This document shows, piece by piece, positions 2,623 to 40,625 of a DNA stretch of 40,625 nucleotides (position 1 is the first letter of the stretch; each line of letters starts with the position of its first letter). A model generated the notes under the pieces. That model did no database searches, was not told the origin of the DNA, and saw nothing but the letters and a program-made list of their open reading frames with translations. Origin of the DNA: a virus; the IMG/VR virus record IMGVR_UViG_3300048922_000436, positions 1-40,625 of that record. One strand, written 5' to 3'. The position numbers and the translations under genes are program-made.

Positions 2623-3005
2623 TTCCCACCCTCCGGCGCTGCTGCCAGCATTGCACGATAAGCTGTTGGGCTATATACGCTAGCTTCACGAAATGCGGCG
2701 CGTAACATTTCTTCTGTCGGCTCAACTGGCACCATCTTCCAGCCCTCCGGCACTGCTGGCGCTGGCGGGGCGGTGTAAACGGCAACAGGGTTTTTAATGC
2801 GATCTCGGCGCTCCGGCGGGTAGATGAAGCCCTTTCCGTTTTCTGCGTACCCCACCGGCTGCGCCTCCCGGTAAGTCGCCAACTCATCAAAAGCGTCGGC
2901 GTTCTGCAGCATGTCCTGAGCGATGCTCACGGATTCCCACTTCGCCTCTACCGCTTTTTCGCGCCAGAACTTAGCGCGCGCTCTCAACTGCTCAGTCGTT
3001 AACAT
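2619..3005 (-). CDS. Ea22-like accessory protein (128 aa)
   Basis: The start at 3005 (MLTTEQLRARAKFWREKA) has GGAG 9 nt upstream and overlaps the preceding gene by 14 bases. The N-terminal half is a charged helix. The C-terminal half carries a module seen in many enterobacterial prophage proteins: a proline-rich linker (PPAPAVPEGW), then KMVPVEPTEEMLRAA and YRAMLAAAPEGG. No enzymatic motif is visible. Function is unknown; it is one of several accessory genes of the leftward operon. Confidence 0.7.
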   Translation of the reverse strand: MLTTEQLRARAKFWREKAVEAKWESVSIAQDMLQNADAFDELATYREAQPVGYAENGKGFIYPPERRDRIKNPVAVYTAPPAPAVPEGWKMVPVEPTEEMLRAAFREASVYSPTAYRAMLAAAPEGGN

Positions 3006-3507
3006 TGTTTCGCTCTCCGTGGTTGGCGAATTCACCGTGAAGTCTTTCTCTTCCTGATTTAACGGCGGAAGCGGCATCATTGATGTCATCAAACATTCCG
3101 AAGTGATATGTCTTGTAATTAAACTTCACCGAGGTTTGCCACTTTTTCGCCTTAGCGTTCCAACTGACACCTTTTATTCCTGTGGTGCTATTTGAATATG
3201 TTTTTGTATTCCATATGTTTTCCTGATTTGTGCAGTCTCGTAAGTTAACGATTCGGTTATCAGTCCTTACCCCATTGATGTGGTCAATGACATTGTCAGG
3301 CCATGATCCGTAATGAATGAGCCAAGCAAGCCTATGCGCCAAATAGGGTTTTTTGTTAATAGTTACTGCCATATACCCCATGCCGCATCCAGATCCTGCA
3401 ACTCGTCCAGCCTTTACATTTCTCGAAGAGTTAACCAGCCAGGTCAATATTCCAGTTTCTGGGTCGTATGACAGAACGCTTCTTGCGTATTCTGCGGTCA
3501 TTTCCAT
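2992..3507 (-). CDS. HNH endonuclease with AP2 DNA-binding domain
   Basis: An HNH nuclease core spans about residues 55-105 (AHRLAWLIHYG ... IDHINGVRTDNRIVNLR ... N), followed by an AP2/ERF-like DNA-binding domain at about 110-160 (STTGIKGVSWNAKAKKWQ ... KTYHFGMFDDINDAA). This is the HNH-AP2 architecture of free-standing phage homing-type endonucleases. I chose ATG 3507 (MEMTAEY) because AGGGGG sits 9 nt upstream; ATG 3516 is an alternative. It is embedded between accessory genes and overlaps the next one by 14 bases, with no visible intron or target duplication. Confidence 0.88.
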   Translation of the reverse strand: MEMTAEYARSVLSYDPETGILTWLVNSSRNVKAGRVAGSGCGMGYMAVTINKKPYLAHRLAWLIHYGSWPDNVIDHINGVRTDNRIVNLRDCTNQENIWNTKTYSNSTTGIKGVSWNAKAKKWQTSVKFNYKTYHFGMFDDINDAASAVKSGRERLHGEFANHGERNNVND

Positions 3508-9154: not shown

Positions 9155-9282
9155 GGTTCGCCTCTTTGATTAAGAGTGTCTTTCAACCACCGGCCAATAC
9201 AGCGCATCCGGCGGGTGATGATTTCGAGTAAGGTTTCGTTATGGCAGCCAGCAATAGGCCACCCTGCAACGGCATATTGCAT
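9151..9282 (-). CDS. cIII: CIII-like regulator
   Basis: The 43-aa product begins MQYAVAGWPIAGC, nearly the N-terminus of lambda CIII, followed by the amphipathic helix ETLLEIITRRMRCIGRWLKD that in lambda inhibits the FtsH protease and so stabilises CII. The start ATG 9282 is preceded by AGGAG. It is shorter than lambda CIII (54 aa) by the non-essential C-terminal tail. It lies behind an intrinsic terminator, consistent with N-dependent expression. Confidence 0.93.
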   Translation of the reverse strand: MQYAVAGWPIAGCHNETLLEIITRRMRCIGRWLKDTLNQRGEP

Positions 9283-9350
9283 GGTGATGCTCCTGTTGAT
9301 TGATAGGTATTCATTGCTGAACCAACTCGTAAATTGGCTTAGCGATGGGT

Positions 9351-9762: not shown

Positions 9763-9784
9763 AAAAAAAAGCCGCTAGGCGGCT
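9763..9784 (-). terminator. Intrinsic terminator in the left operon
   Basis: Minus-strand stem AGCCGC/GCGGCT with a CTA loop followed by seven to eight T residues. It is the first strong terminator after the N candidate, comparable in position to lambda tL1. Confidence 0.87.
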
Positions 9785-10422: not shown

Positions 10423-10461
10423 TGAGACCGAATCAGTCTCAATCTGGATTGTTAAAGAAGC
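10423..10461 (-). promoter_or_regulatory. nutL: nutL-like site (boxA and boxB)
   Basis: On the transcribed minus strand: boxA-like GCTTCTTTAACA (10450-10461), then an 11-nt gap after CTTTAA, then hairpin TGAGAC-TGATTCG-GTCTCA (10423-10441). With a U-G pair the loop reads GAUUC. The same layout, gap and loop pattern occur after cro at 11810-11847. Confidence 0.72.
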
Positions 10462-10530
10462 AGCCTGACTTCATGTCTGGCGCGGCTGGTTGTTCCGGTT
10501 GCCGCATCGATGTTTCGTTTCGATGACTTC

Positions 10531-10559
10531 ATTTAAAACTATGGTTGTATTTATGTCAA
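10531..10559 (-). promoter_or_regulatory. PL promoter
   Basis: Minus-strand -35 TTGACA (10554-10559, perfect), 17-bp spacer, -10 TTAAAT (10531-10536). The spacer contains a copy of the repressor-site sequence also found in PR, so CI binding would block it. Confidence 0.85.
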
Positions 10560-10618
10560 CAACTGAAGTTGTAAATATGGGTGTGGTTGTATTAAGTGGT
10601 TGTTTTTGGTTGTATTAA
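10537..10618. promoter_or_regulatory. Left operator region with repeated half-sites
   Basis: Positions 10537-10550 (aactatggttgtat) differ at one base from 11518-11531 in PR, marking a shared CI/Cro site. A palindrome acaactgaagttgt lies at 10558-10572. Further TGGTTGT copies occur at 10584, 10597 and 10607, giving an array of half-sites beyond PL that is larger than the usual three operators. Confidence 0.65.
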
Positions 10619-10686
10619 AAAACTGAAATTTTTTGTGCAGGGGAGGGATTAAGGTTAAAAAGTGTGATCTTGGAGGCGGGAAGCAG

Positions 10687-10711
10687 AAAAGCTCGGGTGA
10701 TTACCGAGCTT
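10687..10711 (-). terminator. Terminator downstream of cI
   Basis: Minus-strand stem AAGCTCGG/CCGAGCTT (8 bp, 7-nt loop) followed by TTCTGCTT. It lies 12 bp past the cI stop. The T tract is modest. Confidence 0.7.
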
Positions 10712-10722
10712 GAGGTTGTTGC

Positions 10723-11457
10723 TCAAGGAAGAACTGCGTACCAGAAAACACGACCAATAATTTCAACTTCGTTAATATCCTTCTCCTCCGGCTCGTACTC
10801 GGCCGAATTGTAGCTTCTTAGGCTTATCCTATCCGGTCCAACACGATAAAGAACCCGGATGCGCTTCCATCCGTTCTGGTTGATGGCATAAAGCTTTCCA
10901 TCAACTAGCTTCTTGTCATTCGTGTTGACCGCTATCTCAGTACCGTCTGGTATGTTTGGCTCCATACTGTTGCCGCGAGCTGGGAAGCACAAAACTCCTT
11001 TGCCATCGGTACTAGCGCCAACCTGGCGCAGCGTGGCTTTGGAGAATCTCAATTTTTCCCCATCATATTGTTCTTCGTTATAACTTCCGTCCCCAGCGGC
11101 GAGCTCAATGTCTCGCAAAAAAGGCACCTCTACTTCATCCCTGAGCAAAGGGGTATTTCTATCCCATGAAGCACCAGCTTCCCACTCTTCAAGCGGCGGT
11201 GTAGCTGAATCAGGGTGATGCTTTGAATAAGAGCTATCACTTTCATCCCTCATCGGCCCAGATTCTTCACTGAGCCATTCAGGACGAACATGCAATGCCC
11301 TGGCGATCTCCACGATTTTAGTCGACGTTTTTGCTTTTCCAGAAGCTAGCTTCTGTATTGCAGCCTGTGACACACCAACCAAATCGGCTAGTGCGGACTG
11401 CGTCAGGTTTGCGGCCAACATGGCGGCCTTCAATCTTTGAGCGAGAGTCATTTTCAT
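10723..11457 (-). CDS. cI: CI repressor (HTH plus S24 peptidase domain)
   Basis: This 244-aa lysogeny repressor has an N-terminal HTH_3 domain (residues 4-60, QSALADLVGVSQAAIQKLASG) and a C-terminal LexA-type S24 domain. The self-cleavage pair is A121-G122 (ELAAGDG), the nucleophile S164 (GNSMEP) and the general base probably K198. It should therefore be inactivated by RecA-stimulated autocleavage. The start is ATG 11457: the upstream in-frame codons lie within or upstream of the PRM -10, and the predicted PRM transcript begins at or within two bases of this ATG, so translation is nearly leaderless as for lambda cI. The operators are at 10537-10618 and 11466-11531. Confidence 0.95.
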   Translation of the reverse strand: MKMTLAQRLKAAMLAANLTQSALADLVGVSQAAIQKLASGKAKTSTKIVEIARALHVRPEWLSEESGPMRDESDSSYSKHHPDSATPPLEEWEAGASWDRNTPLLRDEVEVPFLRDIELAAGDGSYNEEQYDGEKLRFSKATLRQVGASTDGKGVLCFPARGNSMEPNIPDGTEIAVNTNDKKLVDGKLYAINQNGWKRIRVLYRVGPDRISLRSYNSAEYEPEEKDINEVEIIGRVFWYAVLP

Positions 11458-11464
11458 ATCCGAG

Positions 11465-11493
11465 AAAATACAACCTCGGTTATACGTGGTCAA
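11465..11493 (-). promoter_or_regulatory. PRM promoter for cI
   Basis: Minus-strand -35 TTGACC (11488-11493), 17-bp spacer, -10 TATTTT (11465-11470). The start point falls on or just before the cI ATG. It is divergent from PR across a shared operator region. Confidence 0.75.
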
Positions 11494-11531
11494 ACAACTA
11501 TATTCTTGCCAAAATAAAACTATAGTTGTAT
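11466..11531. promoter_or_regulatory. Right operator region
   Basis: Three candidate CI/Cro sites: 11467-11484 (tacaacctcggttata, overlapping PRM -10), about 11492-11508 (aacaactatattcttg) and 11518-11531 (aactatagttgtat, inside PR). The last matches the PL site at 13 of 14 positions. The site boundaries are approximate. Confidence 0.65.
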
Positions 11532-11534
11532 ATT
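11506..11534 (+). promoter_or_regulatory. PR promoter
   Basis: Plus-strand -35 TTGCCA (11506-11511), 17-bp spacer, -10 TATATT (11529-11534). Transcription would start near 11541, about 22 nt before the cro ATG. Confidence 0.85.
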
Positions 11535-11562
11535 ATGACTTGAATACAACGGAGGTGGTTTT

Positions 11563-11802
11563 ATGGAACCAGTTATCAACCAAGTAATTAAAACCGCCAT
11601 CGCGATCGTCGGAACGCAGAAAAAGCTGGCGATCGCATGTGGCGTTAGTCAGTCGGCAGTGCAGAAGTGGTTGCACTGCAAGGCGAAAGTGGCTCCTGAG
11701 AACGTTGAATCCATCGTTCAGGCCACTGGAGGTAAGGTGCAGAACTATCAGATTCGCCCAGACCTCCCAAATCTGTTTAAGCACCCAGAACAAGCAGCAT
11801 AA
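11563..11802 (+). CDS. cro: Cro-like repressor (YdaS/Cro family)
   Basis: This 79-aa helix-turn-helix protein (residues 15-50, GTQKKLAIACGVSQSAVQKWL) is of the Cro/YdaS type. It is the first gene from PR, with GGAGGT 6 nt before the ATG, divergent from cI. Its role should be to repress PRM and later the early promoters. The assignment rests on fold and position, both clear. Confidence 0.92.
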   Translation: MEPVINQVIKTAIAIVGTQKKLAIACGVSQSAVQKWLHCKAKVAPENVESIVQATGGKVQNYQIRPDLPNLFKHPEQAA

Positions 11803-11809
11803 GCACCAC

Positions 11810-11847
11810 CGCTCTTTAAACAACTTAACCGCGACTGTTTCGGTCGC
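11810..11847 (+). promoter_or_regulatory. nutR: nutR-like site (boxA and boxB)
   Basis: boxA CGCTCTTTAA (11810-11819) is the canonical core. After an 11-nt gap, hairpin GCGAC-TGTTTCG-GTCGC (11831-11847) follows. Stem end, gap and loop match the left site, differing in one loop base. It lies between cro and cII, as in lambda. Confidence 0.8.
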
Positions 11848-11906: not shown

Positions 11907-11938
11907 GTATTACGTATGGACACTGCAAAAACACGCAA
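11907..11938 (-). promoter_or_regulatory. PRE promoter with CII-binding repeats
   Basis: On the minus strand TTGC-N6-TTGC (11925-11938) is the exact CII recognition pattern. It lies over the 5' end of cII, with a weak -10 (TAATAC, 11907-11912) downstream, and the whole stretch closely resembles lambda PRE. It would drive cI establishment. Confidence 0.85.
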
Positions 11939-12194
11939 TGACGCCCGTCGCATTGAAAGCTCGTTGCTCAACAAGATAGCGCTGAAAGGCGTCACAAGTA
12001 TTGCAGCTGCAGTAGGCGTTAACCCATCTCAAATCACACGCTGGAAAGAGTCTCTTATCCCTCGCATGGCGATGTTATTAGCCGTTCTGGAGTGGGGCAT
12101 GGAAGACGAAGAAATGGCGGAGTTGGCTAAGCGCCTGGCTGGATATCTGTCACCAAAAGAAAACGCCCAGGAAGTTGCAGCTTTCGAGGCGTGA
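11916..12194 (+). CDS. cII: CII transcription activator
   Basis: This 92-aa protein is close to lambda CII as I recall it (RIESSLLNKIA, AAAVGVNPSQITRWK, MLLAVLEWGMEDEEMA). The DNA-binding HTH is at residues 25-45 and the tetramerisation helix after it. The C-terminal tail that in lambda is the FtsH degradation tag is different and rich in Ala/Glu. AAGGAAG precedes the ATG. CII should activate PRE, whose repeats are inside its own coding start. Confidence 0.96.
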   Translation: MDTAKTRNDARRIESSLLNKIALKGVTSIAAAVGVNPSQITRWKESLIPRMAMLLAVLEWGMEDEEMAELAKRLAGYLSPKENAQEVAAFEA

Positions 12195-38654: not shown

Positions 38655-40625
38655 ATGAGTGTTGCTATGTCTTCTAATGCAAGGGTTTTCCGGCATGACA
38701 TCAATGGGCTTCGCGCTTGGGCAGTAATCGCTGTCGTACTTTTCCATTTTGGCGTTCCTGGCTTTGTTGGCGGTTTTGTCGGGGTGGATGTGTTTTTTGT
38801 GATCTCAGGTTTCCTGATGACGCAAATCATTGTTTCTGGTATAGAAAATGGCAACTTCTCCCTTTGGCGGTTCTATCTGGCTCGCGCACGCAGAATCATT
38901 CCTGCATTGTTGGCTTTGAGTTTTACCCTACTGATTCTCGGTTGGTTTTTCCTCACCTCGGTAGACTACAATACCCTTTCAAAGCATGTGCTGGTTGCCG
39001 TGCTGTTTATTTCCAACGTAAAGTTTTGGAAAGAATCTGGCTATTTTGATGCCGCATCGCATGAAAAGTGGTTGCTTCATACCTGGTCATTATCGGTTGA
39101 ATGGCAATTCTATATTGCACTCCCCGTCGTTTTGTTGGTTATGTGGCGTTTTTGGAAAACGCCAGGGGTGAAATTCACCCTGTTTGGTGGTTTTCTGCTC
39201 TCCTTTGCTCTTGCATGCTATTTAGCCGTCACCTTACCCAGCGCCGCGTTCTTTTTGTTGCCGACAAGGGCGTGGGAGATGTTGGCGGGTGGTGCCGTAT
39301 GGTGGCTGACTCGGAATAGTCACTTCTCGAAAATTAAAGCTCAAATGATGGAGCTGGTGGGGTTCATCCTGATCGTTGTCGCAATCGTGTTTTTCACCCC
39401 TAAGCTTGCATGGCCGGGGGCTTATGCGATGGTGCCAGTGGCGGGGGCGATGCTGGTACTCGCTGCGGCCAGACAGGGCTCAATTTTTACATCGAACTAT
39501 ATTGCAGAGCGAGTGGGGGTCTCGTCGTACTCTATTTATCTTTGGCATTGGCCCGTAGTGGTTTTTCTTGCTTACAATAATACCGCGGGAGATTGGCGAT
39601 GGGTGCTGGGGGGATTGCTGCTCAGTTTGGTTTTAGGTGAGCTTTCTTTACGGTTTATTGAAAATCCGGCCCGCAAAAAATTAGCTAAGCAAAGCGATTG
39701 GGGGAATGTTTTCAGTATCGGTTCCTGCATGGTAATTATCTGCGCCGCTACTGTCGTCATGTTTAAGCACCATTTTATCAATCGTGTGCCGGAACAGATC
39801 GATCTTATCGCTAATGAAAGTCTCAATTCCAATCCCAAGCACGCCGACTGTTTCGCTACGACGGGCACGACCTCGCCGGGATGTATATTCGGCGGCAGTG
39901 AAATTAAGGCGGTGGTCGTCGGTGATAGCCATGGTAATGCTATGGTTACAGCCGTGGAAGCGGCATTGCCAAGCAAAGACGATGGCGTGTTGAATCTTAC
40001 CTATGCGGGTTGTCCTACGCTCTACCGGGCAAAAACAGTACCTGGTGAAGCTGAGGATCATCAGGATTGTTATGGCTTCAATCAATGGCAACGGAAAAAA
40101 CTGGCAAGCCTGGATAGTTCTATTCCTATCGTGATCATAAACAGAACGTCGGTATATGCCTTTGGACGGCATAATGTCGAAGAAAAAAGGCGTACACCGA
40201 TCGTCTATTTTTCCGAGATCAGCGCGACGCCGAATCCTGAATTCCTGGCGGAATTTAAGTCATCTTTAGTTGAGTCTGCCTGTGAGTTGGCCGCTAAACA
40301 TCCTGTTTTCATGATGCGGCCTATGCCGGAAATGATGTCTAATGTCCCTAAAACGCTGTCACGGGCTATGATGTTGGGGAAAGACGCGCCGCATATTTAT
40401 CTGTCGGAAGCTGACTATATGAAACGTCATTCGTTTGTATGGCAAGCGCAGGACGAAGCTGCAGAAAAATGTGGCGTGAAAATCCTGAATCCATTACCGC
40501 TGGTTTGTAGCGGTGGAAAATGTGAAAGCACATATAGCGGGCGCCCTATTTATTATGATGATAATCATGTAAGTGAATACGGGAATAAACTGTTGGTGCC
40601 GATGTTCAAAACGATTTTTGATTGA
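38655..40625 (+). CDS. O-acyltransferase with SGNH domain (OafA-like)
   Basis: This 656-aa protein has an N-terminal acyltransferase-3 membrane domain of about ten helices (RHDINGLRAWAVIAVVLFHF; GGFVGVDVFFVISGFLM; RARRIIPAL; LLHTWSLSVEWQFY; YSIYLWHWPVVVF) and a periplasmic SGNH-type domain from about 400: VVVGDSHGN (nucleophile Ser) and DDNHVSEYG near the end (Asp/His). Such proteins acetylate O-antigen or other surface glycans. The start could also be ATG 38667; neither has a good ribosome site. It lies outside attR, so it is probably host or from another element. Confidence 0.9.
   Translation: MSVAMSSNARVFRHDINGLRAWAVIAVVLFHFGVPGFVGGFVGVDVFFVISGFLMTQIIVSGIENGNFSLWRFYLARARRIIPALLALSFTLLILGWFFLTSVDYNTLSKHVLVAVLFISNVKFWKESGYFDAASHEKWLLHTWSLSVEWQFYIALPVVLLVMWRFWKTPGVKFTLFGGFLLSFALACYLAVTLPSAAFFLLPTRAWEMLAGGAVWWLTRNSHFSKIKAQMMELVGFILIVVAIVFFTPKLAWPGAYAMVPVAGAMLVLAAARQGSIFTSNYIAERVGVSSYSIYLWHWPVVVFLAYNNTAGDWRWVLGGLLLSLVLGELSLRFIENPARKKLAKQSDWGNVFSIGSCMVIICAATVVMFKHHFINRVPEQIDLIANESLNSNPKHADCFATTGTTSPGCIFGGSEIKAVVVGDSHGNAMVTAVEAALPSKDDGVLNLTYAGCPTLYRAKTVPGEAEDHQDCYGFNQWQRKKLASLDSSIPIVIINRTSVYAFGRHNVEEKRRTPIVYFSEISATPNPEFLAEFKSSLVESACELAAKHPVFMMRPMPEMMSNVPKTLSRAMMLGKDAPHIYLSEADYMKRHSFVWQAQDEAAEKCGVKILNPLPLVCSGGKCESTYSGRPIYYDDNHVSEYGNKLLVPMFKTIFD

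Follow-up and report, generated by a model that had tools for sequence, protein, structure and literature searches.

A putative N/boxB pair with a UGNUBCG hairpin loop in a P22-like virus and its relatives

The boxB RNAs of lambda, P22 and phi21 have been described as adopting GNRA-like structures, including the CUAACC hexaloop of phi21, which has a UMAC-type GNRA-like fold (PDB 1NYB; PMC12550061). From epsilon34 (PMC2629481) and phage L (PMC8022706) it is already known that the N-terminal part of N carries its specificity and that there are further classes. The N of epsilon34 keeps the C-terminal region and diverges over the N-terminal 27 residues, and a novel boxB specificity was predicted for it; the available text of that account does not describe a UGNUBCG boxB class (PMC2629481). 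A description of this loop was likewise not found in the open-access literature searched. To our knowledge, RNA-peptide structures have been solved for only three N/boxB pairs, those of lambda, P22 and phi21.

Here we analysed a stretch of 40,625 nucleotides (hereafter, the window), positions 1 to 40,625 of the virus contig IMGVR_UViG_3300048922_000436 from IMG/VR. It encodes portal, scaffold, coat, DNA-transfer and tailspike families together with an integrase, NinG and a DnaB-like helicase, and from this gene set the source was read as a temperate P22-like podovirus. The genes are arranged as CI-PR-cro-nutR-cII and PL-nutL-N. As in lambda-type systems, each early operon has a boxA followed by a boxB, one set downstream of PL and the other downstream of cro, and the product of the first PL gene is small, basic and homologous to known N proteins (Table 1). 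Elsewhere in the window, a lambda CIII thermoregulator RNA was detected at 9237-9296 on the minus strand (RF01804, 57 bits), and a gene of an O-antigen acetylase family (phrog_6705; 38655-40625, plus strand) at the right end is possibly a lysogenic conversion gene. No boxB family in Rfam matched the window, and a sub-threshold Trp_leader match at 10683-10762 was taken as chance.

Table 1 Features of the early control region of the window and the evidence for each.
Feature	Position	Strand	Evidence
nutL boxA GCTTCTTTAACA	10450..10461	-	Direct reading; position relative to boxB kept in relatives
nutL boxB UGAGAC-UGAUUCG-GUCUCA	10423..10441	-	Direct reading and folding; identical hairpin in MNSK and MNNK relatives
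nutR boxA CGCTCTTTAA	11810..11819	+	Direct reading
nutR boxB GCGAC-UGUUUCG-GUCGC	11831..11847	+	Direct reading, folding, covariation
Candidate cognate N antiterminator, 85 aa	10004..10261	-	PF25694, phrog_271, ARM/loop co-inheritance
Long stem in the N leader, from nutL boxB to the N start codon	10277..10413	-	Fold z -4.81, 0/200 shuffles
Intrinsic-terminator-like hairpin AGCCGCCTAGCGGCT-TTTTTTT	9770..9784	-	Consensus scan only
CI-like repressor	10723..11493	-	phrog_4, E 2.4e-54; Peptidase_S24
Cro-like regulator	11563..11802	+	phrog_35, E 3.3e-23; stop codon followed by nutR
CII	11916..12194	+	Phage_CII, E 1.1e-29

On the minus strand nutL reads GCTTCTTTAACAATCCAGATT-GAGAC-TGATTCG-GTCTC-ACC, with its CTTTAA core at 10452-10457 and a 5-bp hairpin at 10424-10440 that an extra T-A pair lengthens by one position on either side; on the plus strand nutR reads CGCTCTTTAAACAACTTAACC-GCGAC-TGTTTCG-GTCGC. 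CTTTAA and the 5-bp stem are separated by 11 nt in both, so that direct reading confirmed the paired sites of equal spacing in the original prediction. Folded in isolation, the nutL and nutR hairpins reached -7.2 and -8.5 kcal/mol (0 of 200 shuffles as stable); in both, U·G and G-C pair inside the stem and leave a triloop. The long stem in the N leader, formed by the inverted-repeat arms 10277-10288/10402-10413 and 10285-10302/10389-10406, is placed like the RNase III stem of lambda. Similar basal arms were also seen in other N classes, and in relatives the apical part carries cargo, such as a tRNA-Gly in Hafnia phage Pocitis76 (L096), a tRNA-like sequence in L107/L108 and small ORFs in L029, L060, L074 and L081. 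The terminator-like hairpin downstream of N is a plausible candidate target of antitermination.

The 85-aa ORF is the gene nearest downstream of nutL. Its product matched the Pfam family N_peptide (PF25694) over residues 27-85 with 40 bits (cut-off 27.9; E 6e-10) and phrog_271, anti-termination protein N-like (E 5.8e-6). Residues 1 to about 22 form the basic N-terminal part (hereafter, ARM), MNSKERKKLARAIAHRAERN, and residues 27-85 a P22-type C-terminal part that ends in CLPEVAMFAAGHRKSNKITAR; P22 is 50% identical over residues 38-85. The basic N-terminus was thus found as originally described, and it is co-inherited with the loop type. The protein had otherwise been held to resemble neither lambda nor P22; given the N_peptide match and the P22-type C-terminus, 'not P22-like' is true of the N-terminal part only. 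A PDB sequence search with the window N gave no match, and the protein is expected to be disordered when not bound to RNA.

Among the closest described systems is that of P22 (N, gp24; NC_002371), which shares the C-terminal half of N, the gene order, boxA and the positions of nutL and nutR. Its ARM NAKTRRHERRRKLAIERD, its GACAA pentaloop, the spacing and the stems, as read in the P22 sequence itself (L103), all differ from the window, where the loops are UGAUUCG and UGUUUCG and the ARM is not of the P22 type (NAKTRRHERRRKLA). HK620/HK140/mEpX2-type N proteins likewise have a P22-type C-terminus with the same boxA and leader layout, and differ in the ARM (NARNRRRARRQAQRE) and the loop (CGAAAUG). 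The overall system is the same in lambda, with a GNRA-like GAAAA/GAAGA pentaloop; we take the ARMs to be alike in starting at residue 1, in a comparable basic register and in Ala12. In place of the GNRNA pentaloop, however, members of the class described here have GNU(U/G/C)C over an invariant U·G, and their ARM has His or Tyr at position 15 and no equivalent of Trp18. In phi21, also the same system, the loop is likewise not GNRA by sequence, but the ARM is unlike that of the window, in which no CUAACC-type hexaloop was found; phi21-like CUARCM loops occurred with other ARMs (L009, L099 and L158).

To survey the hairpins in relatives, IMG/VR was scanned on the RNA side with the pattern GCTCTTTAA-N16-TGWTTCG, blind to the protein. 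This yielded 83 matches on 73 contigs, of which 54 had stems of at least 5 bp and 29 of at most 3 bp, with none between. By comparison, 452 TGWTTCG sites in the fetched loci that lacked CTTTAA just upstream included few hairpins of 4-6 bp, and most of those few were additional nutR sites with boxA written CTTTAC or CTTTAT. The stems are diverse (UGAGAC/GUCUCA, UGGGGA/UCCCCG, GCGAC/GUCGC, AGGGA/UCCCU, GGAGGC/GCUUCC and CCUCCC/GGGAGG), and the loop follows the consensus U-G-N-U-(U/G/C)-C-G (UGNUBCG, B = U, G or C), with any base at position 3 and U, G or C at position 5. One sequence that fits the DNA pattern, UUUGGG-UGUUUCG-CCUAAU (L069), has no N behind it and was excluded from the alignment as chance. 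A reading of the loop as a UUCG tetraloop was rejected, given that UUCG is absent from the variants UGNUGCG and UGUUCCG and that the stems would not register.

In the alignment of 18 distinct hairpins, six of the eight pairs vary on both sides, and both-side changes filled 33 cells against 10.5 in shuffles. The covariation score was 0.63 against 0.16 (reached in 0 of 500 shuffles) and vanished when the partners were slid. The inner U7·G13 and G8-C12 were unchanged in all 18, and the closing pair was A-U in nine and C-G in nine. Conservation and covariation of the hairpins in relatives, the check proposed with the original prediction, were therefore both found. The GWUUC loops over an inner U-G pair that it described hold as a distinct loop with an invariant inner pair, although the consensus GNU(U/G/C)C is wider than GWUUC.

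On the protein side, 21 IMG/VR loci encode relatives of the window N. Among these relatives the same ARM came with the same boxB, while a similar N C-terminus in L009 and L012-L017 came with another ARM and another boxB. Class nutL sites are followed by an ORF starting MKAREIRKLERARQH, MNNKQRKKLQRAIEH, MNSKERKKLARAIAH or similar, and the ARM motif of the class is M(K/N/T)x(R/K)(E/Q)x(R/K/Y/W)KxxRAxx(H/Y). The window has this motif, the loop in both nutL and nutR, and the same closing pair in the two. Among distinct N proteins with a readable nutL in the first set, from which the motif was written after the data had been seen, 32 had motif and loop, none the motif without the loop, one the loop with a near-motif (MKAREIRKLERSRQH, Ser for Ala at 12) and 37 neither (Fisher p 4e-19). 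The later loci, scored with this pattern unchanged, gave 40 with both, 0 and 0 mixed and only six with neither (p 1e-7), these loci having been fetched with class members as queries and a few of the proteins having previously been seen by eye.

The C-terminal domains exchange while ARM and loop travel together: the C-terminus of class N is P22-like in some members and in others of a form (YYSKPTREMGVTCVGRQKMKLGSKPL) that is presumably lambda/phi21-like. Two virus contigs from one isolate assembly (L263 and L264) share the N C-terminus (88%) and differ in the ARM, and their boxB loops are UGAUUCG against GACGA. A reverse swap was seen in L204, which combines the C-terminus of the MNNKQRKK group with the ARM MNRNQRRMAAFNAKK and boxB CCUGUG-AAUA-CACAGG. 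The class is thus evidently defined by the ARM, with the C-terminal domain, to judge from these sequences, an interchangeable module. We note that if prophages sharing a host had to avoid cross-talk, ARM and boxB would be expected to diverge as they do between L263 and L264. Because many contigs are nearly identical copies, the counts overstate the independent events; the signal is carried by about seven ARM lineages (MKAR, MKSR, MNSK, MNNK, MNAK, MNSR and MTNR), which together with the domain swaps supply the independent evidence.

These swaps bear on the possibility that nut and N are functional with no separate specificity, the loop being tolerated by a lambda-, P22- or HK620-type N. The P22-like C-terminus of the window N speaks for this, and the requirements of P22 boxB reportedly overlap those of lambda (title of Cocozaki 2008, listed in PMC8022706). 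Against it, loop and ARM switch jointly, even between N proteins with near-identical C-termini, and in the first and later loci P22- and HK620-type ARMs were never found with the class loop, nor class ARMs with any other. We consider this explanation improbable. Covariation and ARM/loop co-inheritance point instead to the original proposal, in which the 85-aa protein is the N of a different N/boxB specificity class.

The class has subtypes in closing pair, loop position 5 and boxA-boxB spacing that track ARM subtypes. Lys at N residue 2 went with an A-U closing pair in 59 of 59 loci, and Asn or Thr with C-G in 70 of 70. This correlation is confounded with descent, since the Lys-2 proteins look like one lineage; residue 2 may nevertheless read the loop-closing pair. 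MNSR proteins had G at loop position 5 in 7 of 9 loci, and with MTNR proteins the stems were of 4 bp and boxA lay 12 nt from the loop instead of 15-17. Where both sites were compared, the closing pairs of nutL and nutR were A-U/A-U in 53 cases and C-G/C-G in 32, and never mixed. Although nutR is more than 1 kb off across cI-cro, its subtype agrees with that of nutL, which suggests selection by a single protein common to both.

This agreement across cI-cro, of nutR with both nutL and the ARM, also counts against the hairpins being kept as DNA recombination linkers or small terminators, with the ARM link due to hitch-hiking. They do sit at mosaic module boundaries (cro/cII and PL/N), and lambdoid phages are known to have short conserved sequences at such places. 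The hairpins are not followed by a T-run, however, boxA precedes them at near-fixed spacing, and an invariant loop between stem arms that change together fits an RNA structure and not a DNA linker, all of which makes this account very improbable. Antitermination by RNA alone exists in HK022, and a put-like mechanism without a protein could in principle operate here; the sites consist of just boxA and a short hairpin, an N homolog stands first in the PL operon, and ARM and loop are co-inherited, so we give it almost no credence.

The border of the class hangs on few residues, since the sister ARMs MNAKQRCKLRR and MNARERCKLRR are related in sequence and paired with a different, GNRA-like hairpin. 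Sister ARMs of the form MN(A/S)(K/R)(E/Q)RCK were seen in L006, L007, L096 and L265 with boxB UGCCGAGAGGUG or UGCCGCAAUGUG, both GNRA-tetraloop-like. Another pair joins the ARM MNRNQRRMAAYNAMK to boxB CCUGUG-AAUA-CACAGG or CCUCAG-AAU-CUGAGG (L106, L124-L128, L204, L238-L245, L261 and L262), to which Edwardsiella phage GF-2 looks related, and a further one (L012-L017) joins the ARM KPAKENSKTRRYRQRG to a CCARUG hexaloop. The contig shared by L047 and L279 encodes, at about 3401 on the minus strand (L047), a 52-aa N with the N-terminal part only (MNAKERKKLVRAVAHRK...) and its own boxA and boxB GCGAC-UGAUUCG-GUCGC; this module lies outside the early region, directly before a P22-type tailspike head-binding gene (PF09008, E 2.8e-46).

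The class recurs in dozens of related viral contigs. No named phage with the ARM/loop pair was among the matches listed in tblastn against 50,697 records. The queries comprised three full-length class N proteins, that of the window among them, and the MKAR N, both entire and as its 40-aa N-terminal part, with the rarer MNSR and MNAK subtypes outside the query set. The nearest named phage among these matches was Vibrio phage IKEMa6-1, with a related ARM (MNAKQRYRAERSAQHH) and loops GAUGC and GUUGC closed by C-G, which hints that the inner U·G of the class is a plain pair. A match to Morganella phage Henu15 (H142) had no lambdoid context and was taken as spurious, and tblastn against plasmids gave none. 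The MKAR N gene has a match at the DNA level in 13 of 5,426 complete E. coli genomes. It lies behind class nut sites in both HL15, where it is annotated as N peptide, and E2865, where it is an unannotated GTG-start ORF; in the E2865 prophage (L188, about 3000-3206) the annotation missed this gene and lists only a partial pseudogene. Scanning genome contigs with the window N retrieved nothing, and with the MKAR N one relative with another ARM and another boxB, in a Pluralibacter MAG (L106). A pattern search of 392 genomes of the family of this MAG matched six, in which the matching strings were judged by eye to be non-hairpin and taken as chance.

Overall, nutL and nutR very probably belong to an early antitermination system of the lambda type, in which the two hairpins serve as boxB, the 85-aa protein is the matching N and the class is separate from those of lambda, P22, phi21 and HK620-like phages. 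The basic N-terminal helix (ARM) of N would recognise the boxB hairpin capped by UGNUBCG, and the nascent RNA loop, boxA and host Nus factors would tether N to RNA polymerase, as in lambda, so that the early left and right transcripts could then pass terminators. We infer binding, Nus dependence, read-through and an absence of cross-reaction with other N proteins. The sequences fit equally a triloop on an extended stem and a GNUBC pentaloop with a GNRA-like backbone, and His/Tyr15 may take the stacking role of lambda Trp18. A stronger version, which we hold only tentatively and think somewhat less likely than its opposite, combines a fold that is not GNRA-like (a stem with invariant U·G and G-C under a triloop or an unusual GNUBC pentaloop), replacement of Trp18 by His/Tyr15, reading of the closing pair by residue 2 and orthogonality to all known pairs.

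We conclude that the class probably represents a real, further N/boxB pair, new within known lambda-type antitermination. As a recurrent pair with a pyrimidine-rich loop, it would test whether antitermination needs the shared GNRA-like fold. The natural domain swaps and the subtype covariation, in which residue 2 follows the closing pair and the ARM subtype follows loop position 5, would provide ready-made specificity rules, and the pair may offer an RNA-peptide tether orthogonal to the lambda N/boxB tag that is in wide use. The class also illustrates a way in which prophages sharing a host could hold their early switches apart.
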